From Elusimicrobia bacterium RIFCSPLOWO2_02_FULL_39_32 (GTDB lineage Bacteria; Elusimicrobiota; Elusimicrobia; 2-02-FULL-39-32), in contig MGUU01000010.1 in NCBI GenBank assembly GCA_001800135.1, positions 1 to 64,000 on the forward strand: 64,000 bases of DNA. Reading direction: 5' to 3'. Of this stretch, positions 25,429 to 63,548 are shown piece by piece. Position 1 is the first letter of the stretch; each line of letters begins with the position of its first letter. The notes under the pieces are model-generated. The model did no database searches and was not told where the DNA came from. It saw only the letters and a list, made by a program, of their open reading frames with translations. The translations under genes and the position numbers were made by a program.

Positions 25429-25918
25429 GCGTTAAAAAAAAGTGTTACGAGCGGTGAGAAACTTCCTCAATTAGAGCGGTTTATAATTTCTCCACATCTT
25501 TTTTGGTTTATCTTCAAACATATTAAATGTTTGTGGAGCATTTTTTTCAATACCTGCCTTAATTCAATTTCAACTAATTCTAGGAAATCACCCACTGCTA
25601 GAACGATTTTTTCTGAAAAAAATTGGTTATTTTTTTCATGAAAATTTTCATTTTTGTCACAAAAAATTTACAAATAGTTGAAGACAGATCGCCTTAGTTT
25701 GAGATATACTTTTAATGGAAGATTCTGTAAGGACTTCTAGGGATCATCCTAAGCCTGTCCTCAAGCAAAGTTTTGAGGGCAAAGTTTTGGGATCAAAGCC
25801 GCTGGATGTTTGATTCTCTCTTTGTGTTAGAGAAGAAATCAGCGCAGTTTGAGGGTTAAAATCTCTAGGAACCTTAAAGAATCTCTTTATTGGAGTTAGG
25901 ATGTAAACGATTACACTT
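25429..25918 (+). other. 490-bp non-coding region upstream of the 1038-aa gene, with possible structured leader
   Basis: No credible ORF is present. AT-rich up to about 25.7 kb, including the shared motif at 25653-25679. The part from about 25.72 kb contains short hairpins: CCTCAA...TTGAGG around 25.76 kb, then GGCAAAG...CAAAGCC at about 25.78-25.80 kb, loosely reminiscent of the leader before the 6992-aa gene. It probably holds the promoter and a long 5' UTR; I cannot fix a promoter with confidence. Confidence 0.4.
25653..25679 (+). promoter_or_regulatory. Shared upstream motif, copy A
   Basis: A 27-bp element beginning TTTGTCACAAAAA and ending AAATAGTT. It differs at only two positions from the element at 57238-57264 and is related to the one at 50725-50752. 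All three lie upstream of large secreted-protein genes. Confidence 0.5.
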
Positions 25919-47500: not shown

Positions 47501-50500
47501 AAAAATACCCAAACTAATCCATAAGCTTTTTCCAAACCTGCGCCAAATACAACGGAAAATTCTTTAGGAGTGAATGTTAATTGAAATAGAATGTTATTAG
47601 GTTGGATGATGCGGAGGGTGTTTTTAATATTTTCAAAAATTGTACGATCAATCTCCAAAACTTTATAGGACTGCCATTTATCTTCAGTTACCTTTACTCC
47701 AATCGTAGCCAATCCCAGATATTTAGACAGCGATTCAGGAATCCAACCATTGAGATAAGCCCAATTAAAAGCTCCATGCAGGATAGAAGCAGAGAGCCAG
47801 GCAACAACATCTCCTCCTAAAGCTGCACCCACCAAATAACCCACTGCAAAAAGAGTTGCGGGTATTAATCGTAACCCAATATCTTTAAGGCTTCCTTCAT
47901 AGTGAAATGCCGCAAAGATCGGAATAGCTGCTATAAGGAAAATAAAGATGCCTGCATAACTAAAAAGAGACAAATGTAGGAGGTGTGTAATCAGAAGATG
48001 CGGTAAAGTTAAGAATACAGCGCTTTCTAAAGTGGAAGCTCCTATTACAGAGTAAATCTTAGTTTTAAAGATCTTTCCATGGCGATATAAAATGTTCGCT
48101 GCTTTTGGCAAAAATTCTTCTTTGCCTTTATAAATGTTAAAAGTATGGTTACCAAGTTCAACTGTTTTATAAACAGGACCAGAATCTTCTCCTATCCCTG
48201 GACTTACTTTCGAATCTCTATGCGCAATATCATAAGTCAGAAGGCTATTTTTGTGATTTTTTAAACCAAAGAGTTTGACTGACACCACTAACTTCTGAAT
48301 CACTCCTTCTTTATTTCTTGCTTCTTGCAGAATCTTAAACAAAATATCCTGAGTTGTTTTAAATCCATCTGCTGATTTTACTTTTTCCACCCATCCTGAC
48401 TTTTGTTTAGAAATATTATCTTCCATATCTTCATCTATATTGGTTACCTCTCTACCCAATTCCAATACTAATTTAACAATCAATAAAGATTCGCTGATCC
48501 TTTCTAACACACTAAAAATAGGAGACCACTCTTGAGTTTCTTTTCCTATAGGGGTTGATGTGCCTAATGGGGATTTAAGATGGATCCTTTCTCCAGTAAA
48601 GAGTTTTTCTAAAGGAGTTTTATCTCTGCGGAAAATTTCCAGATATTCTGTGCCGCTTCCCTCCACGACCCCTAGTTTTGGAGCCAACACACAATACGCG
48701 ATCTGCTTGCTTTTAAGGATTTCTGTCATGCCAGAGGTATGGAATCCACCGCTCACTAAGACTGCAACTTCATTGGCAGAGTTAGTTCCCTTTATCCCCA
48801 CTTTTTTTAAAAGGTTGTTGACCAGAGCTTGGTTACGCGCGATTCCTGCCTGGTTAAACTCTTCAAATGGTTGTAAAGATTGAATATCTAAAGAAACAAG
48901 TTCGCTGATATTTTTTTTCCTTTTTTGATACTCTGCCCATTCCTCTGGACTTAACTGAAAATGCACTAACTTGTTGAGCAGCTCTAAATCTTGTGCTTTT
49001 TGAACTAACTCTTTTTCTTTAGGATTTTGAATGAAGGATTCAATTTTCTCTTTTTCTAATTGACTGATTTCTTCAAATAACTCTTCACTTTTGATTTTGT
49101 CACTCATCAATACATACCGAATATAGTTATCCATCTGTGGATAGTCAGATAGCTTAACTTTATAGGCTTGACACAAATCCTTTAAGTATTGATAAAACGC
49201 TCCGTAAGAGATATTCCCCACACGATAAGCTAAACTTGCAGAGACTAACTCATTCATCTCTTGTTTTGAAAGTTTCTCTACCAATTCATTGGTTAAAGCT
49301 CTTCTTTCTCGTTCAACTTTGTCAAAATTTAAGGATTCTTCCAAAGATAAAGCCTCCATATACCTTTGAATCATGGAGGCTTTTTGGGGGTTCCATTTTT
49401 GAGTTAGAATTTTAAGAAAAAGGTTTAACTTGATCTCTTCTCTGTTATATTGGCTAATAGCTTTATCAAGTTTTTTAAGTTCCTGATTAAATATATTTTC
49501 TTTAAGCTGCTCAATCTCTTTTTCTAATTTTTTAAGAGTTTGTTTTCCTTTTTTTTCTAATGGCACGGAATTTTTAAATGCCTTGATATGCTTTAGATAC
49601 AAATCTTCATCCTCAACTCCCCAAAAAAGAAATGGCTGGATCATCTCCTCTTTGATTGAGCTTGAGGAGTTATCTCCTTGCTCTTTTACTTCCCCATCTC
49701 TATCTTGAGAGGAAGGTTTATCTGATTTACTTTCTTTTTTTAATCCATAAGTCATCCCTACATATTCTGGACCAGAAATAAAAGATTCTTTTAATAAATA
49801 GTTTGCCACCTCTTTTACAATCTGTTTGTTGGGAAATAAACGATAAAGACTAAAATTAAATGGGCCGGAAGCTCCTTCCAACCCTACAATCAGCCTACCT
49901 GTAGCCCGCGGCGAAAAACTCCTCTCTAAAGATTCAATGATCTTGGCAATGTTCTTTTGAGCTTCTTGGTTCTCATGCACATCCTGAATATGTACAACCA
50001 TAAAATCTCCTGGTTTCCAGCCAGAAGGCAAATAAAGGTCTGTTAAACGAGCATAATGAATAGAAAGGGATTTAAACCAACTTGGCAGAGTTTCTAAACG
50101 AGATTGGACTTGAGACGGTAGTTTGAGATTTGTTTGTCCAATCGTGGTTTTGGGAATAGAGTTGGGTAGAAGATTAAGATTTAAGGATGGAATCTGTGAA
50201 GCTAAACTATTTTCTACTTGTGGAGCTTGAACTTTTGCTATTAAAGTTTCTTCTTGATTCTTGTTTTCTCCTTCTTCTTCAAGGCTGGTCTGTTGTAAGC
50301 GATTAGCTGCTGCTCTTCTCTCTTCCCATAGTTTCGCATATTGCTTCTCTCTTCTGGATTGCGCTACAGGCTCTATCACTCCATACGCTACCTGTATATA
50401 AAAAAAGACTACTGCCATACTTAGGGAAGTAGCGCGCAGCCATGATGAATGATGAGGATGAGAATTATTTTTTATCATAACTTTTGGCAGCCCAACCAAC

Positions 50501-50502
50501 AT
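29524..50502 (-). CDS. Giant multidomain envelope protein, 6992 aa (proteases, UbiB kinase, HD, cNMP-binding, GGDEF)
   Basis: A single uninterrupted 20.98-kb ORF. In order (approximate residues): signal/anchor 21-42 (SLSMAVVFFYIQVAYG); HIQDVHEN domain 130-640 with GLEGA and GGFHTSGM (587), possibly of the EreA/ChaN/TraB type; membrane region 830-1150 with LHGAFN at 908; helical region; zinc motif AHELGH at 1566; membrane module with SGAHKGRT (1848) and LHSSWN (1928); M48 peptidase with AHEITH (2101), EYDAD and THPQIKERI; long unassigned helical region; UbiB/ABC1 kinase 3430-3700 with KVGQ, VVVKIKRPDV, ELDFWQEA, HADPHGGN and IDVG; second SGAHKGRT module (3957) with LHSLYN (4028); degenerate kinase-like DINEDNLI...MIDLGG (4257); membrane module with LHGVFN (4640); Ala/Ser/Pro-rich linker; HD domain (AWLHDIG, 5046); cNMP-binding domain 5460-5570; GGDEF domain with YVGGDEF (5746); degenerate second GGDEF starting DALTG (6065); coiled coil 6190-6250; membrane segments ~6414-6474; C-terminal domain 6800-6992 shared with the 57.7-kb giant. 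The start is uncertain: ATG 50502 lies inside the leader RNA, and ATG 50478 (MIKNNSH) is the likelier one. Function unknown. Confidence 0.85.
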   Translation of the reverse strand: MLVGLPKVMIKNNSHPHHSSWLRATSLSMAVVFFYIQVAYGVIEPVAQSRREKQYAKLWEERRAAANRLQQTSLEEEGENKNQEETLIAKVQAPQVENSLASQIPSLNLNLLPNSIPKTTIGQTNLKLPSQVQSRLETLPSWFKSLSIHYARLTDLYLPSGWKPGDFMVVHIQDVHENQEAQKNIAKIIESLERSFSPRATGRLIVGLEGASGPFNFSLYRLFPNKQIVKEVANYLLKESFISGPEYVGMTYGLKKESKSDKPSSQDRDGEVKEQGDNSSSSIKEEMIQPFLFWGVEDEDLYLKHIKAFKNSVPLEKKGKQTLKKLEKEIEQLKENIFNQELKKLDKAISQYNREEIKLNLFLKILTQKWNPQKASMIQRYMEALSLEESLNFDKVERERRALTNELVEKLSKQEMNELVSASLAYRVGNISYGAFYQYLKDLCQAYKVKLSDYPQMDNYIRYVLMSDKIKSEELFEEISQLEKEKIESFIQNPKEKELVQKAQDLELLNKLVHFQLSPEEWAEYQKRKKNISELVSLDIQSLQPFEEFNQAGIARNQALVNNLLKKVGIKGTNSANEVAVLVSGGFHTSGMTEILKSKQIAYCVLAPKLGVVEGSGTEYLEIFRRDKTPLEKLFTGERIHLKSPLGTSTPIGKETQEWSPIFSVLERISESLLIVKLVLELGREVTNIDEDMEDNISKQKSGWVEKVKSADGFKTTQDILFKILQEARNKEGVIQKLVVSVKLFGLKNHKNSLLTYDIAHRDSKVSPGIGEDSGPVYKTVELGNHTFNIYKGKEEFLPKAANILYRHGKIFKTKIYSVIGASTLESAVFLTLPHLLITHLLHLSLFSYAGIFIFLIAAIPIFAAFHYEGSLKDIGLRLIPATLFAVGYLVGAALGGDVVAWLSASILHGAFNWAYLNGWIPESLSKYLGLATIGVKVTEDKWQSYKVLEIDRTIFENIKNTLRIIQPNNILFQLTFTPKEFSVVFGAGLEKAYGLVWVFLLEVGGSFLNFFLMPILSFLSPKLTENQKTLYAMKIRWILASAAIGLFTGAGIVTFALSIGLSLPNLLVNEMVFNPTYLGTIIGILIGLGTYLNFDHKALEITIENNYRLYKLMVQRKFDPSKVSDDEINLLNNIFHLSMIAEDHLTKLHSLLLEDLLSSPDRGLIENIYGDFILNDKSRGLFNLLWNELKNQLKKEEMNQEVLITMIRLLTAHWKLYDDIKELDQLREITSQTYRRFGTQNFVEEIMNPLLKKLNAINAHQKTIEPLQEWYLIKIKARKEEVMKQIETQINILSSTAYEALSSKELEKNKDGWNILNNLIEVIKNEDWDINAAAENISNLTPFIEMGTEPVISYLLSKLEPELTEHERQILMKIFVGNPTDEEIIAILRNKEVKIKERTAYLILLRHHKDPNRKALLDNIISSKEFRGKIRIYAFTWYSSQYFHAENENKFEEMIELLADEAKNLIGDAIASDDDAKIEQLFNDIYLQDEEAKVLVMATLLVLQKEAGSFSSSENFLKTAKRISNARVRAYWGNATSGFTLGGGLLEGREKKTALFFQIVAHELGHRILWDQHNYSSNNLKAGIIHEFISDIHTFLFTNVFKGLGLDAQNFMKIFNYNFHYNTVESAIYYSNEVHEGGRAQLAAIQKQVAEINWEVFLSVCFEVLKSEKNRGKELEEIVKLVLNEYFKKGIKVTQVEASKKSAGFTRYALRSGGIRIFSSDRIQDLIQKFSTIPASILDKWLREIEFDKKHPILYKLYTIFGVIWEVVYQILGVNMLAQTFLVKKGIAGEVKHAGKWTLVGITIFSFAVTGGIIASNLGMSAVIPAIAAVVAWSLASAYVFSGAHKGRTPLQKAVLFGVGFILAGVLVAPAIFVLMGMPIPIIGDFSFPWIGGISNLGDGMAGGIGTISNLGKALMFGLIANMVLHSSWNAFVTLIVHNLGRLFEQFGFIALGKFLQKAPAADISADADKDEDKRSFQIPGSRPFGQGYTLSKNVPQSEEKYQIAKARNERILDYYHESLGIIDDKSDEMRQTYQEVKEMTDLILQAAGLNPNYFIVHLVETEQVNAFILSHSNHIFINVGLLKYLINKGGAKDALAFVIAHEITHILQNREDVDDGKANLAKTIKDIPETYVERYTDEYDADWRAIKLLDKVYEQSNGKIGFALSEAQFLFKRISEDLEKESKDPTLNFLKKLSQRFGTHPQIKERIRRLENLLNNFYWRSFFKEPTPFSDGARNEILQGSQNLNFREAVKNMNTLDDFKFLLNNKVKSIEDLEYLLIYAYEKSKTSADLPFKDAYLLADLKADQWVAKDRSLLPYYVFIFTSIQRFTGYSSIVYDDQKEQLKNTIRNLNFEQLHKLLKIKLPAIVECNTSSEYFNYKYWFYGLSRGSQYSLHDNFVEIWIDSVMEEIEDRIEKENIPIQMILEMAAALESHRQRIKQVKPKLQEDVKDGLDPVNKTLFHVYNNDFAWYLWLHLKSNPKNREIYLPQLISQLKQLSFGSKGLKGYLVRQEKLLLNDSIRATRYQEMLQGLIKLAQTGEIDKSAIVDLIKDARYNYHQDKLSEYIQIEIESYPNGKLSNFSGDLMDDLKVFAALFREPGDFYENLMVSVLEHLIAHYQLTEVEKFKFFEEAVQFFEQELKKSDHKLKTSIFFSTPLDRFLKTTILKAPQTEELTKFMNQRMALLEKEMGIKNLTQASFPMQKLIYLFSIGSGENPWILRHVLLKRDSDNAKTLFAKLKKWGRGDSFDPYLYPYTAQTSERYLPPFTDQYKEFEGLDHPEKFSKEDFEALYLALKALPEYAEKKGGLKFPSMEEMRSLRVVQIGGMDSWDETISGIGIESFMRNLGVDTNNIGMRPMMFDPGEYESVVSYYKAFVGELFQVLEWEKIDNGGYRDLRRVAWKQRKYHKAPARPLSLARQFFNDGPVDEMFEKAFGFVRQIPGSYEERLNELAEELPPSIFRNFALYALLLENIKDVLPRGTRQLDMKKVMEPNYLQKIIRDNIILEEQKNLLSLAEKIQKHLIWDKKLKEANEESMRYMAGDVVSGQFLATADRRKAEKSQDVLLDPDQYDPNLREPVYVYIPKGFDSSQFTPFQFHVAGGEEAYVEFLIANIFSQSLGSLFKDPSLTFSKKLEHIMALYPRASPIRDQYLDILLESSSFSPQEIIEVISLFSSEALKQKHALKALELEKDLDPNKFKDFDYELERILYYFPDFSYIRDDLLQHFINTRVQHPKQLEKAQNLLLEFQDNVRKEEARKTIFGHDLLKTIFQNYSFKSNQKMEFLLWFMGFENKKPDFLTILEELYRINFDSLRSAGIQDGKHYKDVGKSAFENALSFFLFGDKGILSDPATSSQFLNSIFDSLIPQGADSNRISLFKDIYLSIFSKASESRKEQILKQLFVQMKKLSGEPSLSSEIREAKAVRAFLESLGFVGIKVGQFLASSNLDLPKHIKLELDSLKTKAPALNKGAAFGALEIAFGNFYDTFQSLDEPLGSASIKMVYKATMKDGRKVVVKIKRPDVEKRIEEELQLLSHVLEAMQTELARKKIQLPENMVKKIHELILQELDFWQEAANQKKLKQNIKNRQAPELSLGFLSMLKRWIPGSGSPSQFTVYVPNSTEVKNNLVMIEELIDGVPVSDEAAIKAMGIDPSKAKEAAAEELLKEIFIDGFFHADPHGGNILVSENRALSFIDVGLMGSLSKQNRETLLQLIIFVQSGSIQNLPFIPKTFGLPNSEDIARLLEKMNQNGRIRISLNKVKGFLAHSQNFTERLLYLLNLVEEAGGTLPDELITFNKALGTAGYLLEHLTPEGIARVLFPQDQQQAPSASIADKKIKEWIERSTKNIKNPILRAVVSAALAVLYVGYTIFGVNWEALYFIPIVGQKLHQSLVKAEIASEVAPIRKTDLLSMKGLVLLGLRIGAIIGFASLFVNLPITILTVPIVVPMVVQWALKSSYVFSGAHKGRTEEEKKILRVVGFTLAAAMFVPAILFMLGIQIPFVGDVGTITSLQAGIIASLKLFGMGILLNFGLHSLYNTIALLTGLPVASITGTLPTPLAAEPKIKTITGFLPPLGSSDQELAKKDVQQLVELIFSGKKSDSPLAAIIHKINQIPGVTFNSNEISLSNITFTPLGNDMNMNKWVFKVSLSPTVHLVLGVTKETTLTGIKEEEIEDFERLWNSGLVPRLIDSGQYGKRDYILLEFIEGPTVAELINQGQFSPEKRKAVIETLLDIAKLTPNQDFLYDENADDTMPMIPLMMPMDINEDNLILNGRAVMIDLGGPKIALGNSIPTLIQYYGYLKGDLGENHFIFQTFLERLGVEHGLALLKENLTYMKRTKMVYEMILGSDFNSSNVEQIKEELIVLSVAINDLNRFLQTQSESKPKDAIASLAQELAKMALEGELERTELIVMSLLNRLEKEKVGSLTYDGIVNALRIILSQKPDLNHTLPLDILNRILALEQLNETPESLSPQLETAGATARWIVPLVLPIWQKLFSQNLLNNRLFVSTVIPILELWGLPGFSLALAPVLGIWISVPVGAFLFALLHEIYQDKDTTPEESRAPPLIKETETEPKAPALETSKSHIFIVRFVATMVISSAAILLSSFLTPYLLPHALPFIQNMVQPFGLEISSKIVQDLLTYLLAGGLHGVFNWFAPQQYRLSIAQIPPSTKVTIKQRLGVTKILTPLVTPDTQMTPDLPAALPPTQITPQNKISILPSPPERQIAAVKKAQGSKITSFKKAQEKRDGASSSAAAPTGKSAVTSAGADKPAVTSVTPSAKIREWIHPVNWIPNIRTLLISAVIAVQSLNPANSLDRKTGTGLAGWNNPITRQIGIWLNLAGFRERKLNLQIQQQEQEVAENEFNQKIKEQELGIANQEMTRIAPSILEDIASLNKTSLQEASQTHSAQQSPLVARALANELKDKLTDLMTNRMNQSLNKKEYANLKQARTNSMEEARSLLLEDYDRLLNLEQVRDDPAKQRESAVLVMTIFHFLILQDEADLELPFVPHSIKHSLNVRKEVGNIISASRTIQANLEDSYGESGIPLAFFSAWLHDIGYGILTKAIDEADKTASQIKDQGDKIAEGYKSEKGYHTVLGVTLAEIPLDGKEGGPTLVNQLDFILGLRDLDGNALGSASAMQDLLIVVKDHGSDKEEVTKDGLRGTGKHKLRNASNKQDILNFLVRMADNLDSVAYSRLYKYQTNPFFIEYLRRMEEAYLKDGKKVGESLIKVRAQLIQEMEITKKVYAHRLQVVEGFTQEQAESQSNNEFDLMEVYVREHNGKDYPHFAGMLFSQSVKEKRWMLGMFKKLVVQAVLNDSNRNIPQKLHKFQLERMETAYQSLRFNHRKIGIEYVNASEKEAESRVGVDTREDTDLNKRKREQIEQLSLLVPPQVSDKKLNIIEKLAQKMFMFLLGMIKNVFPTKFLPDTSGQRGEQAREERETQEGAQLEEGLRDHLNQEKLSQYQINMIQALIHYLKTNPNGSFVEVTKSKGEEIISIKEDQSHDVYILLQGSLEILEGKGDRKPSSLTLGSMIGDSSHLTSKRTEDVLAGSEGARLYRLSGQQVQNLFADPQFMVAYAGLIHARAPPPPELSIETAEPSKDKKKSNIVSIGSFKTEKAKREQRERERQEAKQSRALVVKLTQTFSEFLSELIRNLVYRQKKGVGDPLTSLEQGKKRRIEQLGKLKGESGRRSFGFAIGDIDNISKMNDFFGKDLIGGLTKSDSNNVVFDHQDETLFRKVRHAINKAFKNQVHAYVGGDEFIPEWDDWTIVLETENKYLKYLETWINHIIHWFRKYILLKPSTRDLGDAVKRFKNELDDRYVVFKIKTEKELSDDEVEALQALKGARMMIRHEDGYNLLVERGKIWRFTKRSREKKINELNNAMTQQIIEIFPELGNIKGAVRSYKVEFRMSVGAGNADQELKYLAEKLHEDYWNLLQIEGLKDQWIDPTTDSIRPERLEESYSWGIRFANDLLKIAKENGKDQAYVLGINEKFMDEEQVKKAKEQMIEDSEKEATELASQGNYKEAEKVREEAEIQANQIKANISKALTRKKVWDERKKLEAEKSGLIPQGIDALTGAHTEQGLRERLSKPGNKKENVYLVKMSDYGLNAAMASVRAAHNMNTVLDYEQMNEVIQMVYKELQAALKRQGITISQPEQGAISARAPPDSFFVVLDREIIVGEDFETMLENLKTELDKKFKENLKTYAKNAKKQYEADLEILENELKELKVKGKSTKQDQKQIAELKKEIAKLTTQISALDHLLKNHFSPAITVFHISNKDIISLKKSGVQVSSRFQIISMMDTIDSVQSKMSKEDQEKLEKVYHRYGNSEKKAINFKPENWHEFMKLYRTAQKIKSQEAKLVLFPKKPAAKRKETGKDSESIKDQKQKREMTKDRVAMTLPETRAAASEIGLSPYSWSTEILFAPMYEFFDSFNPFKFYQDHKTMGWRAGVLAVGIGLVWLSMIGFIVLTGYLMPDIKYLIYIVGTISLISGVHLSQVKEIESKIFNLNRWNELSLLDKSALLLVLPMLIPNTVVHSLSNLLFRITSYLSLVIDRGFVRFGIVKSFVGFIRDTREPLIEQNVKSLIHELETKKKQGVSFPKNLIPEIIRGGLLNKVADYKSLERLQVSDQYQNLVQSLKIMQIAALFKGEEPLTVPALSDLSNLDELGDLNNLGERSYLDDERIALLRILRYSSEQEVSQLIHSLERLSRLDQNKMRESFGVWSEKVIESLAQNSLYRDLAITPEQGISALTKDQMVMAYEGFAAIVAPQSKVSQLQRDMVRKLWQSAQTKSKQRLISLKSNMKEVNSLNTIQELENHRVTAAIDVSNPNPSQDQIELNAQQIVKAWSGKTENIKGVLVPLITNQDSLNPETIERVKRTLEDQGHLEVAQQLNKNIHFVVGTRTDLISLIKQKGKPEIDPSIEMDPDDVNEILINKIKERVGSTDPLKELSLTLFTDNMNRYKNKWESKIQIYMILSHLQVVEISKEITDTLHAREVLALQQ

Positions 50503-50620
50503 CCCCGATTTGCTTTAGTTCGGGATTAGTCTTGTGCCCGCATCTTTAATGCAGGCCCGCCATTCAAGGCGGGGCTTTGCGTACTCTAGCTTTCGCTAGA
50601 GGTTGCCTTTATCGAGTTAC
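50486..50620 (-). ncRNA. Candidate structured leader RNA resembling a c-di-GMP-I (GEMM) riboswitch
   Basis: On the minus strand, AAAGGCAACC is followed by the hairpin CTCTAGC-GAAA-GCTAGAG and then TACGCAAAGCC (50607-50573). This reproduces the GEMM core (GGCAAACC, GNRA-capped stem, GACGCAAAGCC). Further stems follow: CCCGCC/GGCGGG, CCTGCAT/ATGCGGG and ATCCCGA/TCGGGGAT, ending GGGCTGCC, near the start of the giant gene. The second half does not follow the GEMM consensus closely, as two hairpins intervene before CTAA. No terminator is seen, so control would be at translation. The class is a hypothesis; the presence of a structured leader is better supported. Confidence 0.42.
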
Positions 50621-50702: not shown

Positions 50703-50724
50703 GGGGGTAAAAAAAGTGTTGCAG

Positions 50725-50752
50725 TTTCGTTACAAAAAGTTTTGAAAAAGTT
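50725..50752 (+). promoter_or_regulatory. Shared upstream motif, copy C (diverged, inverted relative to its gene)
   Basis: TTTCGTTACAAAAAG followed by TTTTGAAAAAGTT aligns with copies A and B with a one-base insertion. It lies just upstream of the -35 of the 6992-aa gene but on the opposite strand. Confidence 0.35.
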
Positions 50753-56332: not shown

Positions 56333-57069
56333 TTTTTCCTAGGATTTTCTCCAACCATGGGCACAAACCGCACAGGAGCAAGAGATTCTTTATGGAGCCT
56401 GCCATATGACTTTTTAAGCAGTAAAAGTTCTTGAACCTCGCCTGAAAGACCTATTGGAATAACCATTCTTCCTTCTTCTTTAAGTTGTTCTAATAAAGAC
56501 GGAGGAACATCTTCTGGAGCGCAAGTAACAATAATTGCGTCAAATGGGGCGAATTCCTTCCATCCTAAATAGCCATCCCCTGTTTTGACCTGAATCTTTT
56601 CATAACCAGTTTGTTTTAAATTTTTTTTGGCAAATTTAGCTAGCTCCGGAATAATTTCTATGGAATAGGTTTCTGCGCCCAGTTCTGCCAAGAGCGCGGC
56701 TTGATAACCCGAACCAGTGCCAATTTCTAAGACCTTTTCCCCGGGTTTTAAGCTTAAGACTTCTGTCATTAAAGCCACGATGTAGGGTTGGGAGATGGTC
56801 TGTTGAAAACCTATGGAAACTGGTTTATCTTCATAGGCCTGGCTCCAAGATTCCTTAGGGATAAATAGGTGCCTGGGGACTTTTTCCAGAGCTTTTATTA
56901 CTTTAGGGTCCTTAATTTTTCTCTGGATGACCTGCTCTAGCACCATCTTTTTTCTTTGTTGAGAGAAATCAGGCTGGTTCACAAGAGATTCGCTAGAACT
57001 AATTTTTTTGTCTTGACAGGACACAAAGAAAAGAAGCCCAGCATATAGTAAAGTTTTTTCAACCCTCAT
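56329..57069 (-). CDS. pcm: Protein-L-isoaspartate O-methyltransferase, probable lipoprotein
   Basis: The 246-aa enzyme has PCMT motifs RHLFIPKESWSQAYEDKPVSIG, QTISQPYIVALM, and SAM-binding VLEIGTGSGYQAALLAELGA, followed by IPIG near the end. It starts repair of isoaspartyl damage by methylating the isoaspartate. Unusually it begins with a signal sequence and a lipobox-like LLFFVSC, so it would be anchored in the envelope. SAM is cytosolic, so either the cysteine segment is an anchor facing inward or the enzyme acts outside on imported substrate. First gene of the pcm-sppA-MEMO-asnB operon. Confidence 0.9.
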   Translation of the reverse strand: MRVEKTLLYAGLLFFVSCQDKKISSSESLVNQPDFSQQRKKMVLEQVIQRKIKDPKVIKALEKVPRHLFIPKESWSQAYEDKPVSIGFQQTISQPYIVALMTEVLSLKPGEKVLEIGTGSGYQAALLAELGAETYSIEIIPELAKFAKKNLKQTGYEKIQVKTGDGYLGWKEFAPFDAIIVTCAPEDVPPSLLEQLKEEGRMVIPIGLSGEVQELLLLKKSYGRLHKESLAPVRFVPMVGENPRKK

Positions 57070-57222
57070 TTTTAAGGAATTATTTAAATCTTATTTTCTA
57101 ATGTGCCATTTAATTTTAAAGTATATCATAAAAAAATAAGGTAGAAATATTCAAAACAATCTTTAAAGCGCGATAAAACTAAAATTTTTTTATTTTAAAA
57201 ATAGGATTTTTTAGAGAGAAAA

Positions 57223-57234
57223 TGTAACGTTACA
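57223..57234. promoter_or_regulatory. Perfect palindrome, possible operator
   Basis: TGTAACGTTACA is a perfect 12-bp palindrome, 4 bases before copy B of the shared motif. The half-site GTTACA also occurs in copy C at 50.73 kb, and GTCACA in copies A and B. Confidence 0.45.
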
Positions 57235-57237
57235 AAA

Positions 57238-57264
57238 TTTGTCACAAAAAGTTTACAAAAAGTT
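57238..57264 (+). promoter_or_regulatory. Shared upstream motif, copy B
   Basis: 27-bp element beginning TTTGTCACAAAAA and ending AAAAAGTT. It is identical to copy A (25653-25679) at 25 of 27 positions. Confidence 0.5.
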
Positions 57265-57306
57265 AGAGAAAAGTTTCGCGCACTTCATTTATAAGCTAGC
57301 TTGAAG

Positions 57307-57372
57307 TTTAGTTGTAAGGCAAGTGGAGTTATAGAGTAGTTTAAAATTTAGTTGCAGGAGAGTGGAGTTACA
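57307..57372 (+). repeat. Two-copy direct repeat, period 40 bp
   Basis: Two copies share TTTAGTTG, then AGTGGAGTTA, at 57307-57333 and 57347-57372, differing mainly in the middle. They lie where a promoter or leader of the downstream gene would be. Confidence 0.5.
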
Positions 57373-57464
57373 ACGCAAGTTGAAAGGAGAATGAAAGTGA
57401 AAAAATTTAAAAAAGGAGAGGTTACCCTAAAATGTGATTGAGATAACCTTATAGGTTTACGACA

Positions 57465-57689
57465 ATGAGAACTTTCACCAGCAAATACCAGCAATTTGTA
57501 GGAACCAGATTTTCCCTGCCGATCTTTCTAGATTGGTTTAATCTAGAAACCATCCAGAAAAAATTAACAGTTCTAAAGTTATGTTACAGAACCTATCAAT
57601 GGGTTCTATTCTTTCTTTTTGGAGGCTTTAAAAAGAGCCCCCCACAAATAGAAAGCGGGAACCTTGCAACAGTTCCCGCTTTTACGACA
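57465..57689 (+). promoter_or_regulatory. Structured leader of the second giant gene (attenuator-like)
   Basis: The frame is open here, but the segment looks like RNA rather than protein. It has the hairpins TCTAGATT/AATCTAGA (57.53 kb), AGAACC/GGTTCT (57.59 kb) and GGAGGCT/AGCCCCC (57.62-57.64 kb), and then a terminator-like hairpin (57652-57683). Its first 30 bases are duplicated just after that hairpin. An alternative reading is a 75-residue N-terminal extension. Confidence 0.5.
57652..57683 (+). terminator. Intrinsic-terminator-like hairpin before the likely start of the second giant gene
   Basis: AAAGCGGGAAC and GTTCCCGCTTT form an 11-bp stem around a 9-nt loop, followed by a T tract (57680-57683). 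It is placed 7 bases before the ATG at 57690, so it could attenuate transcription into the gene. Confidence 0.6.
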
Positions 57690-60600
57690 ATGAGGAACTC
57701 CACCAGCAGTAGAGTTCTATTAATATATAGCAGAGGTAACAGAATTTGTCAAGCCCCTAAATTTCAATCTAAATATAAATGGAAACAATGCGTTTCTTTA
57801 GCTTTAGCCGCAATTTTCTTTTACGTTAATATAGCTTTTGGCGCAATAGAACCAGCTCAAAAGCTCTGGAAAGAACGCAGAGCCGCTCTTTTAAAAATAG
57901 AAAAGAAAAAGCCAATTCATGAAACATCTGATTTTTTTGTAGATTCACCTCTAAACCCTAATTCAATCCCACAAGGAAGCTTAACGCAACTTCCTCTGAC
58001 GCCTCAGGCGGCCAGTCAAAAAATAACTCATCTTACGCAGCTTCCTTCCTTACAAGATCAGTTCTGCCCCAACCCCCTTCCTAAGAATGAGTTAGGGTTT
58101 AGTAGGTTGAATTTAAAATCATTTTTATCAGGAACAGTTCCTATTTTAAAGCATGGAGGAGGCATCAATTCTTGGATACAATCTTTGCCAAGTGAATGCG
58201 CGGATATTAAGGAAGTTTATTTCCCTGCTGAATGGAAGTCTGGGGATTTGATAGTTATGCACATTCAGGATGCGCATGAGAATTTCCAGGCTCAAGCTAA
58301 TATCGCAAAAATATTAGAGTCTCTTACAAAAAAGGGTCAGGATAAAATTGTTGTAGGTTTGGAGGGAGCTCAAGGCAAATTAAATTTTACACCCTATCGC
58401 TCTTTTCCAGACAAAGGGATTATTAAGGATGTGGCGGATTATTTTTTAAAAAATTCCATGATTTCCGGAGCGGAATATGCAGGTCTGACATTGAACCCTG
58501 AGGGCTCTGATCAAAGCTCTCTTTTATTCTCAGGCATAGAGGATGAAAAACTTTACTCCAATCATGTTAGAGCTTTTAAAGATTCTGTCCTTGAAGAAAA
58601 AGAGGCGAAGAAAATTATTTTAGAGTTGCAGAACTCTTTAAACCTGCTTAAAACCAAAATATTAAATTCAGATTTAAAAGAGTTAGACCAAAATATGACT
58701 TTGCACTATAAAGGACAGATTAAGCTAAGCCAATACCTTAAAGTCCTTACTCAGGATGGAATTCCTTCTGATTCAGAGATGATTCACAAATTCATGAATG
58801 CTTTAAACTTAGAAGAAACCTTAAACTATGAGCAGGTAGAGAAAGAAAGAAGAGCTTTAACCAATAGTTTAGTGGAAAAGCTCCCTAAGCTAGAGTTGAA
58901 TAAACTGATTTCCTCTAGTCTTTCATATAGGTTGGGAAATATCAGTTACGGCGCTTTTTATCAATATTTAAAAGATTTGTGTCAGGCTTATGGGGTGGGT
59001 TTAGCCAAAGTCCCAGAGATGGACAAATATGTTCGATATGTTCTATTAACTGGAACGATCCATGCAGAATCATTATTTAAGGAAATAACGCGGTTGGAAG
59101 AAAAGACTGTTCAACGGCTTGTTGTAAATCAGAAAGAGAAAAGTGTGATAAGACTTTCTCAAGATATAAGATTGTTAGAAAAACTTATAAGTTTTAGTTT
59201 GAGTCCTGAGGAGTGGGAGGAATATAAGAAAAGAAGGGATGAGATTCAAAGAGTTGGAAAAAGGATGAGTGAATTTAAGATTTTATCCAAAGGTTTTTTA
59301 GAGGTTTTTTCCAAGAACCAAATTGAAGCGAGCCCGCCTAAGAGAATAGCTATTTCAGAGCAGACCTTTTTAGAATCTTTAAGTTCTTTTGAAAAATTTA
59401 ATCAGTTTGCGATTCAGAGGAACAATGCCTTAGTGGAAAATCTTTTAGCTCAAGAGGCTTCTTTTCAATCTAGAGTTCCAAATCTTGCGATTGGCTTTTC
59501 TGTTCAACAAGGCTTGCCTCAGCGCTCAACACCACGAGCCGCGGAATCGCGCGATGTGGCTAGAGTCGCGGTGCTTATTGCCGGCGGATTTCATACTTCT
59601 GGGATGACTCAAAACCTTCGAAATCGAAAGATCGCTTATGCAGTAGTCAGTCCAAGATTGGAAATTAGCCAAAAGAAAGGAACAGCATATCTTGAGATTT
59701 TTAATAGAGAAAAAATGCCTTTAGAAAAACTGTTTAGTGGAGAGCGCATTACTCTTAAATCCAGTTCCCCGTTTGCGCCTGTGGGCAAAATTTTAAATCA
59801 AATTGTTCCTGCTTTGGAGGGAGCATTTCTCTCATTTGCCATGGGGTTATTTATAAAAAAGGCACTTCTTAAGATAACTAATTTGGATAAAAGCGTTAAG
59901 AAACAGATTGAAAGGGAAATAATTGATTGGTTTAGCATGTTAAAAGAGGAGAACAGCTTTCACACCATTAAGAATTTAAAAATAAAAGATTTAGTTGAGA
60001 TAGAAAGGGATTCAAAAGGCGTTTTCAAAAAAGGCCGTTTGCATTTTGAATTTTATGGAAAAAGTCCGGACAAAGAGAAAAAGAGAGTGGAAGTTTTCTT
60101 GACGATCTTAGACAGCTCACTTAAAGATAAGAGCGATCTTCAATCTCCAAAAAATATCTCTGTTCAAATTAAAGATAGTATTCTCATCCTCAGCGGGCCC
60201 GAGCCCGGATTCTTTGAAAAAAGTTTAGCTTCAATGAAACTGGTAAAACAATCTTTTTATCAGCTGACGCAAGAGTTGAGCAAAAAAATAGTTGAGGAGC
60301 TTAAGATACTAAAAGTTCAAACTTTGGCTGCATCCCATTTATTTTTAAGATCTTTAAAGCCTATCTTAGCTGTGCTATTGGTTGTAAGTTGTAAATTGCA
60401 AACAGGTCCAATCACTGTGTCTCCTTTAACCGGGCAGCAAACTAAATTAGAAAAAGCTGTTGGAGAGTCTTTGGAATCAGAAAAAAAACCTGTAGAAATC
60501 CGCTGGAGAAGGTCCATGTTATTAGGAACTGATGGTTCACCCATAAGCTCTCCAGAGATTCCATCTTACGCTGTGGATGTAATGCCATATTTGAATCTTG

Positions 60601-63548
60601 CGCCTAAAGGAGAAATCGAGTTTGAAAATTTTAGCAACGCGCTTTTAAAACTCTATGCTTCTCAAGGGTGGTTGCAAACCTACATACCTTCAATCAATTT
60701 AGAAAAGATGCCTTTACTTTATATTACTGCAAAGGTTTCAAGAGACACACATTTTGAATTTGAGTTAAAAAATCTTTATGAAGCAAGCATTTTAGGAGGG
60801 ATTGTGGATAAGGTGCCTAAAGTGATGATTCAACTGCCCTATAATAATGGGCAGCCATACACAAGCGTGATTGATTTGCGGGAAGATTTAAAACTATCCA
60901 GGGAAAGAAACAAAGAAACAAGATTGATGTTTATATCAGATCCTAAAGCTTATATTGAGATATCGAGAATTGCTTTTGCTCCAGTTGAAGCTCCTGCCAC
61001 TCCTCCAGAAAAAACGAATCCTGTGATTCTATCTCCTATACAAGTATTGCCATTTATAAAACCATTGGAACGCGTGGAAGGACTTTTCGATCTCTCCAGT
61101 CCAACTCGTCTTTGGATGCGTCACTCATTTGGCTATTTTGGAATAAAGATTATTCCTATTGATCTTAATTTAAGACCTAGTCTTTATATAACAGGTAGAA
61201 CAAATAGTGATATGCAATTTGAAATGGAGATGAGGAATGGAGGAGAGAATACAGTAGGAAAAGATATGGATAATGTTAGAAAAATAATGGTGCCATTTCG
61301 CAATAGTTCTCAGAAACTAAACACAATATTTATTGATTTAAGAAGCTGGTTTTTAGATCCGAATATGATCAATATGCTTTACTTTTCTGATCCTCAATCC
61401 ATATCTGGTGACGCTGGAGGATGGATAGATATCAATAGCATAGTTTTTAGTCAGCCTCTACCTTTTTACGATGAAGAGGAGACTGTTAATCCCTCTTTGC
61501 CTTTGCCAGGAACTTACATTAATGTCCTCCCTCATCTGACTTTTCTCAATAAGGGACAGGTTAAACTTGGCTATTGGTCAGGTTGGATCGAAAGCAGGAT
61601 GCCAGCGGTCAATTTAGAAGAATATTCTGATCTTTATATTATTGCAAGAACCACAGCAAAAACTAGGTTTAAATTGGAGTTAAAGAACAAATATTATGAA
61701 CGTCTGGTAGGTCAAATATTAGATGGGGTTCATAAGATACCTATTGAATTGCCCAATACTCATAGTTTATACCGTCCAATTAAGATTGATTTAAGGGGCA
61801 GATTTATTTCAGCGTCAAAGAGAATAGCTGAAAATATAGCAATCTCTGATCCTGCCGGTGGAATAGAGATTGCACAAATCTCTTTTGCTAAGCCTAAACC
61901 ATTTAATTTGGTGGAGACATTAATCGCAATGGTTCTCTGGACATTGGTTGGAGGATTTGGAGTTATTTTATCAGGAATATTACCCAATAGTGGGTTACAC
62001 ATTTTAGATTTAATTTTAAAGATAAGTTCAGGAATCATTGGTTTTTATGGATTAGCAGGAGGATTGTTTTATGCCCGCCATGGATTTTTAGGATTTCTTG
62101 CTCTGGTATCTGCTAGATATTTTGCTCAAAGCTATGGCAAAGATTTAAACCTAGCTAAAGGAGTAAAAGAGGAATTGAAAAAATATGGAATCCCACTTAA
62201 CTCACTTGCAGTAGTTGAACAATTAAGCGGAGCCGGCATTACCACATTTGCTCAAACCCATCAAGAGAAAGGAAAAGTAGAAATTTTATGGTGGCTGGTA
62301 ACTAAATGGAAGCAGTTTGACTATTTAAGAAAAATCATGCTTTCGATTGTATTGGCTCATGAAAAAGAAAGAATCCTTGGACGCGATACCATTCGTATCT
62401 ACCTCACTAAACCTTTAGTTTCCCTCCAAACACAATTAACTGCTAACAAAAAATTAAAATCCAAAAAAGAACTTATCCCGCTTGTTTTGAAATCTTTAAT
62501 TTCTGAAATAGGGAGAGTGAAATTAAATAGTTTAGCTGTTGCCGATGGTTTTGCGCAAGCGCATCATACTCTTAAGATTTTACAGTTTTCCTCTATTTTT
62601 AATGCTCCCCTTAAAAAAACGTTTGCCCGTCAAAATAAAATGATCCAGCCAGAAAATTTTATGAGGACTGTGCGCTATATGTCCCAAGAGGACTCATTAG
62701 AAGCATTGAGTTCGTTTAGAGAATTCTATCTCAAGAATCCTATTTTGGCAAAAGAATCCTTTGGCATTTTTTTAGAGAAACTTTTTAGACAAGGAGGAGA
62801 AGCTGAATATTTAGACCCATCCAATGCCATGGGTTTTAAAGAGACTTTAAAAAATGTTGAACTCTTTATTTCCCTGCTTGTTCCGCAAGCCAGATTAACC
62901 AAAGAACAAAAAAGCATATTGGCAGAGGTATGGAAAAACGGAGCAAGAAAAGCTGAAGAGTTATCCTATTCAAAATCAAATGACGTTGAGGAAGAACTTG
63001 TGCCGCAAGATGCTGAAAGCTTGCTTGCAAATCTTTTTGATTTTTCTGATGGGTTACACTCTTTAGATAAACTCAGCGTCTTAGCTAAAAGAATCACTCT
63101 GGCAGTTAATAGGGAGAAAAATAGCGGGAAGAAAATGATCCTTCCTATTATTACTAACAAAGATTCGATTGATATTGAAAGCTTAAAATATCAGTTAAAG
63201 AAGGAGTTCCCGGATATTACAGAAGAGATATTAAGGAAGGTTTCATTTGGAGAATTCGTCATCACCCGCCAAGACCTTTTATCCAGGCAGAATGCCGATC
63301 CCTTAATTGAGATGGATACTGACCTTATTTATGAGATTCTAAGAGAAAGGCTTAAAAAATCTCCAATCTATAGGGGTTTGGAGTTTAACCTACAGATATT
63401 TACGGACAATCCTCACAGATTTAAGGAGAGCTGGAAAATAAGACAGCTCCAGTTGTTCATCATTGTATCAGGTAGGAAAGTGATTGAATATTTTAAAGAA
63501 ATGGAAGAGTCGCTTCATGCAAGAAGAACTCTTTCAATTCAGCAGTAA
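57690..63548 (+). CDS. Second giant envelope protein (1952 aa from the preferred start; 2027 aa from 57465)
   Basis: Residue numbers below are from 57465; subtract 75 for the preferred start. A signal/anchor (VSLALAAIFFYVNIAFGAIEP, ~112-130) matches that of the 6992-aa protein, as does the following KLWKERRAA. Next comes the HIQDAHEN domain (266) with GLEGA, the long conserved block ISYGAFYQYLKDLCQAYG, and GGFHTSGM (707). A membrane segment with a cysteine follows (ILAVLLVVSC, ~974). Three tandem beta-rich domains of ~130-150 residues (about 1026-1176, 1196-1336, 1352-1479) each end in an ISDP/FSDP...I.I..I.F motif and could bind ligands or carbohydrate. Two or three helices lie at 1484-1549. 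A helical part has AHEKER, resembling a degenerate zinc-protease motif. The C-terminal domain (1862-2027) shares ITN.DS, LFTDN-like and LHAR..L..QQ with the 6992-aa protein. ATG 57690 is preferred because a terminator-like hairpin precedes it. Confidence 0.75.
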   Translation: MRNSTSSRVLLIYSRGNRICQAPKFQSKYKWKQCVSLALAAIFFYVNIAFGAIEPAQKLWKERRAALLKIEKKKPIHETSDFFVDSPLNPNSIPQGSLTQLPLTPQAASQKITHLTQLPSLQDQFCPNPLPKNELGFSRLNLKSFLSGTVPILKHGGGINSWIQSLPSECADIKEVYFPAEWKSGDLIVMHIQDAHENFQAQANIAKILESLTKKGQDKIVVGLEGAQGKLNFTPYRSFPDKGIIKDVADYFLKNSMISGAEYAGLTLNPEGSDQSSLLFSGIEDEKLYSNHVRAFKDSVLEEKEAKKIILELQNSLNLLKTKILNSDLKELDQNMTLHYKGQIKLSQYLKVLTQDGIPSDSEMIHKFMNALNLEETLNYEQVEKERRALTNSLVEKLPKLELNKLISSSLSYRLGNISYGAFYQYLKDLCQAYGVGLAKVPEMDKYVRYVLLTGTIHAESLFKEITRLEEKTVQRLVVNQKEKSVIRLSQDIRLLEKLISFSLSPEEWEEYKKRRDEIQRVGKRMSEFKILSKGFLEVFSKNQIEASPPKRIAISEQTFLESLSSFEKFNQFAIQRNNALVENLLAQEASFQSRVPNLAIGFSVQQGLPQRSTPRAAESRDVARVAVLIAGGFHTSGMTQNLRNRKIAYAVVSPRLEISQKKGTAYLEIFNREKMPLEKLFSGERITLKSSSPFAPVGKILNQIVPALEGAFLSFAMGLFIKKALLKITNLDKSVKKQIEREIIDWFSMLKEENSFHTIKNLKIKDLVEIERDSKGVFKKGRLHFEFYGKSPDKEKKRVEVFLTILDSSLKDKSDLQSPKNISVQIKDSILILSGPEPGFFEKSLASMKLVKQSFYQLTQELSKKIVEELKILKVQTLAASHLFLRSLKPILAVLLVVSCKLQTGPITVSPLTGQQTKLEKAVGESLESEKKPVEIRWRRSMLLGTDGSPISSPEIPSYAVDVMPYLNLAPKGEIEFENFSNALLKLYASQGWLQTYIPSINLEKMPLLYITAKVSRDTHFEFELKNLYEASILGGIVDKVPKVMIQLPYNNGQPYTSVIDLREDLKLSRERNKETRLMFISDPKAYIEISRIAFAPVEAPATPPEKTNPVILSPIQVLPFIKPLERVEGLFDLSSPTRLWMRHSFGYFGIKIIPIDLNLRPSLYITGRTNSDMQFEMEMRNGGENTVGKDMDNVRKIMVPFRNSSQKLNTIFIDLRSWFLDPNMINMLYFSDPQSISGDAGGWIDINSIVFSQPLPFYDEEETVNPSLPLPGTYINVLPHLTFLNKGQVKLGYWSGWIESRMPAVNLEEYSDLYIIARTTAKTRFKLELKNKYYERLVGQILDGVHKIPIELPNTHSLYRPIKIDLRGRFISASKRIAENIAISDPAGGIEIAQISFAKPKPFNLVETLIAMVLWTLVGGFGVILSGILPNSGLHILDLILKISSGIIGFYGLAGGLFYARHGFLGFLALVSARYFAQSYGKDLNLAKGVKEELKKYGIPLNSLAVVEQLSGAGITTFAQTHQEKGKVEILWWLVTKWKQFDYLRKIMLSIVLAHEKERILGRDTIRIYLTKPLVSLQTQLTANKKLKSKKELIPLVLKSLISEIGRVKLNSLAVADGFAQAHHTLKILQFSSIFNAPLKKTFARQNKMIQPENFMRTVRYMSQEDSLEALSSFREFYLKNPILAKESFGIFLEKLFRQGGEAEYLDPSNAMGFKETLKNVELFISLLVPQARLTKEQKSILAEVWKNGARKAEELSYSKSNDVEEELVPQDAESLLANLFDFSDGLHSLDKLSVLAKRITLAVNREKNSGKKMILPIITNKDSIDIESLKYQLKKEFPDITEEILRKVSFGEFVITRQDLLSRQNADPLIEMDTDLIYEILRERLKKSPIYRGLEFNLQIFTDNPHRFKESWKIRQLQLFIIVSGRKVIEYFKEMEESLHARRTLSIQQ

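Follow-up and report, generated by a model that had tools for sequence, protein, structure and literature searches.

The segment from about 57302 to 57740 on the plus strand of the window, by which we mean the whole 64,000-nucleotide stretch analysed (contig C10 of a 2.5 Mb genome), is probably an untranslated, folded leader, one that would gate the expression of an exported giant protein. The nominal gene, 57465-63548 (+), is an open reading frame of 2027 amino acids, and its first 225 nucleotides (57465-57689) fall within this leader; they are very probably untranslated, the open frame across them being accidental. That the leader is regulatory, a proposal argued from analogy, is put forward more tentatively.

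The preliminary description had allowed that the open frame across 57465-57689 may be accidental, and codon usage, the pattern of substitution and the N-termini of paralogues all back this suggestion. The codon-usage score of the stretch is -0.104 per codon, close to the intergenic mean of -0.088, and none of the genuine 75-codon blocks of the window scores as low (minimum -0.049, mean 0.215). From 57693 to 57740 the score is -0.434, lower than at all 20 of the 20 gene starts tested; from 57741 it is 0.015 and then rises. The sister genome, a groundwater MAG of an Elusimicrobia bacterium and the sole close relative compared, has ten differences over 57465-57689, seven nonsynonymous and three synonymous, giving a dN/dS of 0.65 against 0.22 just downstream. 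A 7:3 ratio is as expected under neutrality and suggests no protein constraint. Coding-type codon usage and purifying selection, by which a translated N-terminal extension would be recognized, are thus both missing from this stretch.

We considered the possibility that translation does begin at ATG 57465 and that the protein truly carries an N-terminal extension of at least 75 residues. The sister keeps this frame open without indels, and an open frame of 225 nucleotides arises in only about 4% of shuffles, but the codon usage is outside the coding range, the substitutions are those just described, no ribosome-binding site precedes either ATG 57465 or ATG 57690, the signal peptide would sit about 109 residues into the protein, and a protein-based scan of genome contigs found the N-terminal region to be common to the sister only, with no other homologue. 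We regard such an extension as improbable. The high identity of the leader to its counterpart in the sister was also considered as proof of constraint and set aside, because silent divergence is equally low in the neighbouring coding blocks, as far as 58140. Over 57465-59265, silent divergence from the sister jumps near position 58140, from some 0.06-0.1 to about 0.6, which suggests recombination or gene conversion among paralogues.

The 2027-residue product has no match in Pfam, but it belongs to a large paralogous family, with 31 matches within its own genome and the motif HIQDAHENFQAQANIAK; we take the protein to be ChaN-like. Alignment to the paralogues begins at about residue 97 of the nominal protein, and the signal peptide of the paralogues corresponds to residues 107-125 or so, while their own N-termini lie only about 10-25 residues ahead of it. 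The coding region proper is likely to be 57741-63548 (+), a signal peptide followed by the ChaN-like giant protein, with the coding signal coming up from about 57741-57765. A Shine-Dalgarno-like AGAGG at 57732-57736 (+) is conserved in the sister, where it is followed by an ATG at 57741. The window has AGA at 57741 instead, which leaves the true start in doubt; it could possibly be at about 57741, at an in-frame ATT at 57744 or at ATG 57690. The last of these is itself doubtful as a start, as the coding signal begins near 57741. The start of the giant gene is corrected by about 75 to 93 residues.

Not noted in the preliminary description is a direct repeat of 28 nucleotides, one copy of which (57456-57483, +; TTTACGACAATGAG..CACCAGCA) contains the nominal start ATG 57465 and the other (57681-57708, +) ATG 57690. 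The copies are 86% identical, in frame and exactly 225 bp (75 codons) apart, and the repeat scores 39, compared with a maximum of 32 in 2000 shuffles. Local duplication of the start region would be the simplest history of both ATGs. A paralogue on contig C11, which has a short leader, has a similar start context (ACGACCAGAATGAGAAC). It may be, then, that the leader is a non-regulatory relic, in which a 225-bp tandem duplication of the start region pushed a leader with incidental hairpins between promoter and gene. The in-frame repeat across both ATGs and the C11 start context would both fit such a history, and the upstream 40-nucleotide repeats (discussed below) likewise point to local duplication; the folding of the leader is nevertheless strong beyond chance, and its upstream and downstream (U and D) repeats are complementary (P about 0.02). 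We consider a relic possible, although somewhat unlikely.

Upstream of the leader lies a promoter box at 57229-57269 (+), made up of 11-bp direct repeats (GTTACAAAATTTGTCACAAAAAGTTTACAAAAAGTTAGAGA) with OmpR/PhoB-type spacing and a matrix score of 35. Its consensus, CGTTACAAAATTGTTACAAAAATGTTACAAAAAGTTTAAGA, has 39 matches in G000 and 43 in G001, the sister pair, at no more than one mismatch, while a reversed-pattern control gave one match in each. Among the loci examined, this box (about 40 per genome) mostly precedes genes for exported proteins, of which many are large. Within the window, copies are found at 25644-25684 (+), 50706-50746 (+) and 57229-57269 (+). The leader of another gene downstream of a box (L095) carries an inserted long inverted repeat (CCCGACTTTTGCATTAGAAAATGG...) that is missing in the sister copy (L094); it behaves as a small mobile element would. 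A Pho regulon was considered for the box, as one paralogue adjoins pstB/phoU-like genes, but no box turned up at the pstS locus examined and the idea was rejected. A likely -10 element, TATAAG, is at 57290-57295 (+). As the spacing from the box to TATAAG equals that to TATAAA or TATAAT in the paralogues, we infer a transcript start near 57302 and a leader of about 440 nucleotides. Within this leader, a putative short lysine-rich ORF, MKVKKFKKGEVTLKCD, follows AAAGGAG at 57391-57441 (+), or may begin at GTG 57397; the sister retains it, apart from a single L-to-P change. A -1 frameshift from this ORF into the giant frame was dropped as an idea, since the frame hits TAA at 57429.

The leader folds better than chance, and its hairpins are real. 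For 57440-57700 the z score is -4.05 and for 57620-57690 it is -5.06, with none of 200 shuffles as stable in either case. Three upstream hairpins hold up: TTTCTAGATTG/TAATCTAGAAA at 57525-57549 (+) has a pair probability of 0.87, AGAACCTA/TGGGTTCT at 57588-57607 (+; 57588-57595 with 57600-57607) has one of 0.94, both being identical in the sister, and GGCTTT/AGAGCC lies at 57624-57639 (+). In the last of these, two sister changes are both pairing-neutral (U-G to C-G and G-C to G-U), the one encouraging case. Downstream, 57651-57662 (GAAAGCGGGAAC) pairs with 57672-57683 (GTTCCCGCTTTT) in a stable G+C-rich hairpin of 12 bp (57651-57683, +), with 57650-57685 folding at -18.2 kcal/mol, and an alternative hairpin, GGAACTC/GAGTTCT, is predicted at 57694-57718 (+). 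Covariation in homologous leaders, which the preliminary description had proposed as a check, was not found: the leader is present in two genomes only, and seven of the ten sister differences at predicted paired positions break the pair while three keep it. The differences do not avoid predicted paired sites (P 0.61).

The 12-bp hairpin had been called a terminator, an 11-bp stem plus T tract ending six bases before ATG 57690. The stem stands, at 12 bp, and so does the spacing (ACGACA), but the T tract does not: the run is TTTT only, it is the 3' end of the stem itself, paired to AAA(G), and ACGAC comes next. The d'Aubenton-Carafa score of 57651-57683 is -12 on the plus strand, whereas genuine terminators just ahead of the start codons of two paralogues, on contigs C16 and C25, score +12 and +21. 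The lack of a real U tract makes the reading as an intrinsic (Rho-independent) terminator weak, and the hairpin is no convincing plus-strand terminator of the giant gene. A terminator scan lists the stem on the minus strand only, where it scores +4.3, and the hairpin might act there as a terminator for antisense transcripts from inside the giant gene; no known minus-strand gene or promoter feeds the hairpin, however, the tail TTTCTATTTGTG is also modest, and we think this decidedly improbable.

Competition between hairpins, also suggested earlier, fares differently in the two species. With AGAACCTA/TGGGTTCT as segments 1 and 2 of a possible attenuator and the 12-bp hairpin as segments 3 and 4, a pairing between segment 2 (57600-57614) and segment 3 (57651-57664) is possible. 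For a transcript ending at 57666, 2:3 is the favoured fold here; in the sister it is not, so that competition is energetically possible in the window without being the preferred intermediate in its relative. The completed 3:4 hairpin is better than 2:3 by about 10 kcal/mol in both. Three sister changes, at 57609-57612, lie beside the core of segment 2, and the competing and long-range elements are otherwise invariant. A predicted long-range pairing involves two direct repeats near the 5' end, U1 (57317-57346, +) and U2 (57356-57385, +), both containing GTGGAGTTA, to which AACTCCAC at 57696-57703 is complementary. Predicted pairing between U2 and 57696-57703 has a mean probability of 0.75 here and 0.64 in the sister, and a helix of this length occurs in 2% of shuffles (P about 0.02).

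Could the leader be a riboswitch or transcription attenuator that responds to an unknown ligand and uses 57651-57683 as its intrinsic terminator? The alternative pairings (1:2 and 3:4 versus 2:3) can be drawn and folded, and the hairpin is just before the ribosome-binding region, like the terminators found in the C16 and C25 leaders, so the arrangement of an attenuator, as first described, is plausible by layout and analogy. The terminator is weak, however, with only UUUU, inside the stem, and a score of -12, and the sister does not favour the 2:3 pairing. Searches of 57050-57900 against Rfam, at gathering level and up to E 10, gave nothing credible, including no c-di-GMP-I match (RF01051/RF03167) to E 10. 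Searches of 60 genomes with the leader DNA and covariance models found only G000 and G001; the leader is a single locus per genome, found in this genus only. As neither the leader nor its repeat motif recurs in the genome, a repeat or mobile element was discarded. With no covarying aptamer, no recurrence at many loci and no Rfam match, the proposal of a riboswitch of unknown class is unsupported, and we judge the reading as an attenuator or riboswitch with this terminator unlikely.

The reading that we prefer is a long folded 5' leader, from about 57302 to about 57740, with the protein made from about 57741 (possibly 57690). Such a leader would lower or gate expression of the giant protein. 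The 12-bp hairpin may keep the ribosome-binding region folded, and the GUGGAGUU repeats, two of them near the 5' end, may contribute by pairing with AACUCCAC at 57696-57703, just after ATG 57690. Segment 2 (GGGUUCUAUUCUUUC) might transiently hold segment 3 (GAAAGCGGGAACC) until segment 4 is made. We infer the gating step from this layout and from the paralogues having c-di-GMP-I switches at the same place. A most improbable variant would be a genus-specific switch, in which the two upstream GUGGAGUU copies and two downstream complements on the start-codon-like ACGACAAUGAG motif replace the c-di-GMP riboswitch of the paralogues and sense some other signal.

RNA regulation is plausible for this family, because c-di-GMP-I aptamers occupy the corresponding position in four paralogues of this genome, among them the window's first giant gene, and at least two of the leaders, C16 and C25, have genuine terminators as well. 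The aptamers match at up to 73.6-75.4 bits. The one at 50483-50617 (-), immediately ahead of the first giant gene (29524-50502), has an inserted hairpin and is of c-di-GMP-I type at 33.8 bits, compared with the Rfam cut-off of 35 (c-di-GMP-I-GGC, 30.5 bits). The C16/C10 paralogue leader (L053, L054) has a conserved short ORF (MKRDKTIRLNCFWNETKMLQRA.. / MKIDKTLKLNCFWNETKMLQRA..) ahead of its c-di-GMP-I aptamer. The giant gene is placed in a family of large exported proteins, in an Elusimicrobiota-type genome, with one common promoter box and c-di-GMP-I riboswitches in several members. RNA control of huge surface proteins becomes testable, and the present leader is one candidate.

Transcription attenuators of the trp/his type have segments 1:2:3:4 and a short upstream ORF. 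The present leader resembles them in its adjacent complementary segments with two alternative pairings and in its short upstream ORF, but its final hairpin lacks a U tract, nothing connects its short ORF with what the giant gene does, and the sister does not favour its alternative pairing. Elusimicrobiota have been described as rich in huge proteins (PMC11573180), and the gene downstream of the leader likewise belongs to a very large signal-peptide family, comparable to the huge exported proteins of Elusimicrobiota and Omnitrophota in that paper, the consulted passages of which do not treat their leaders or regulation. The c-di-GMP-I riboswitches of the paralogues (RF01051, RF03167) differ from the present leader, which is without their core AAGGCAAA...GACGCAAAGCC and has a weak U tract, but like them it is placed between promoter and signal peptide, and it shares with the C16 and C25 leaders a hairpin, there a terminator, just ahead of the start codon.
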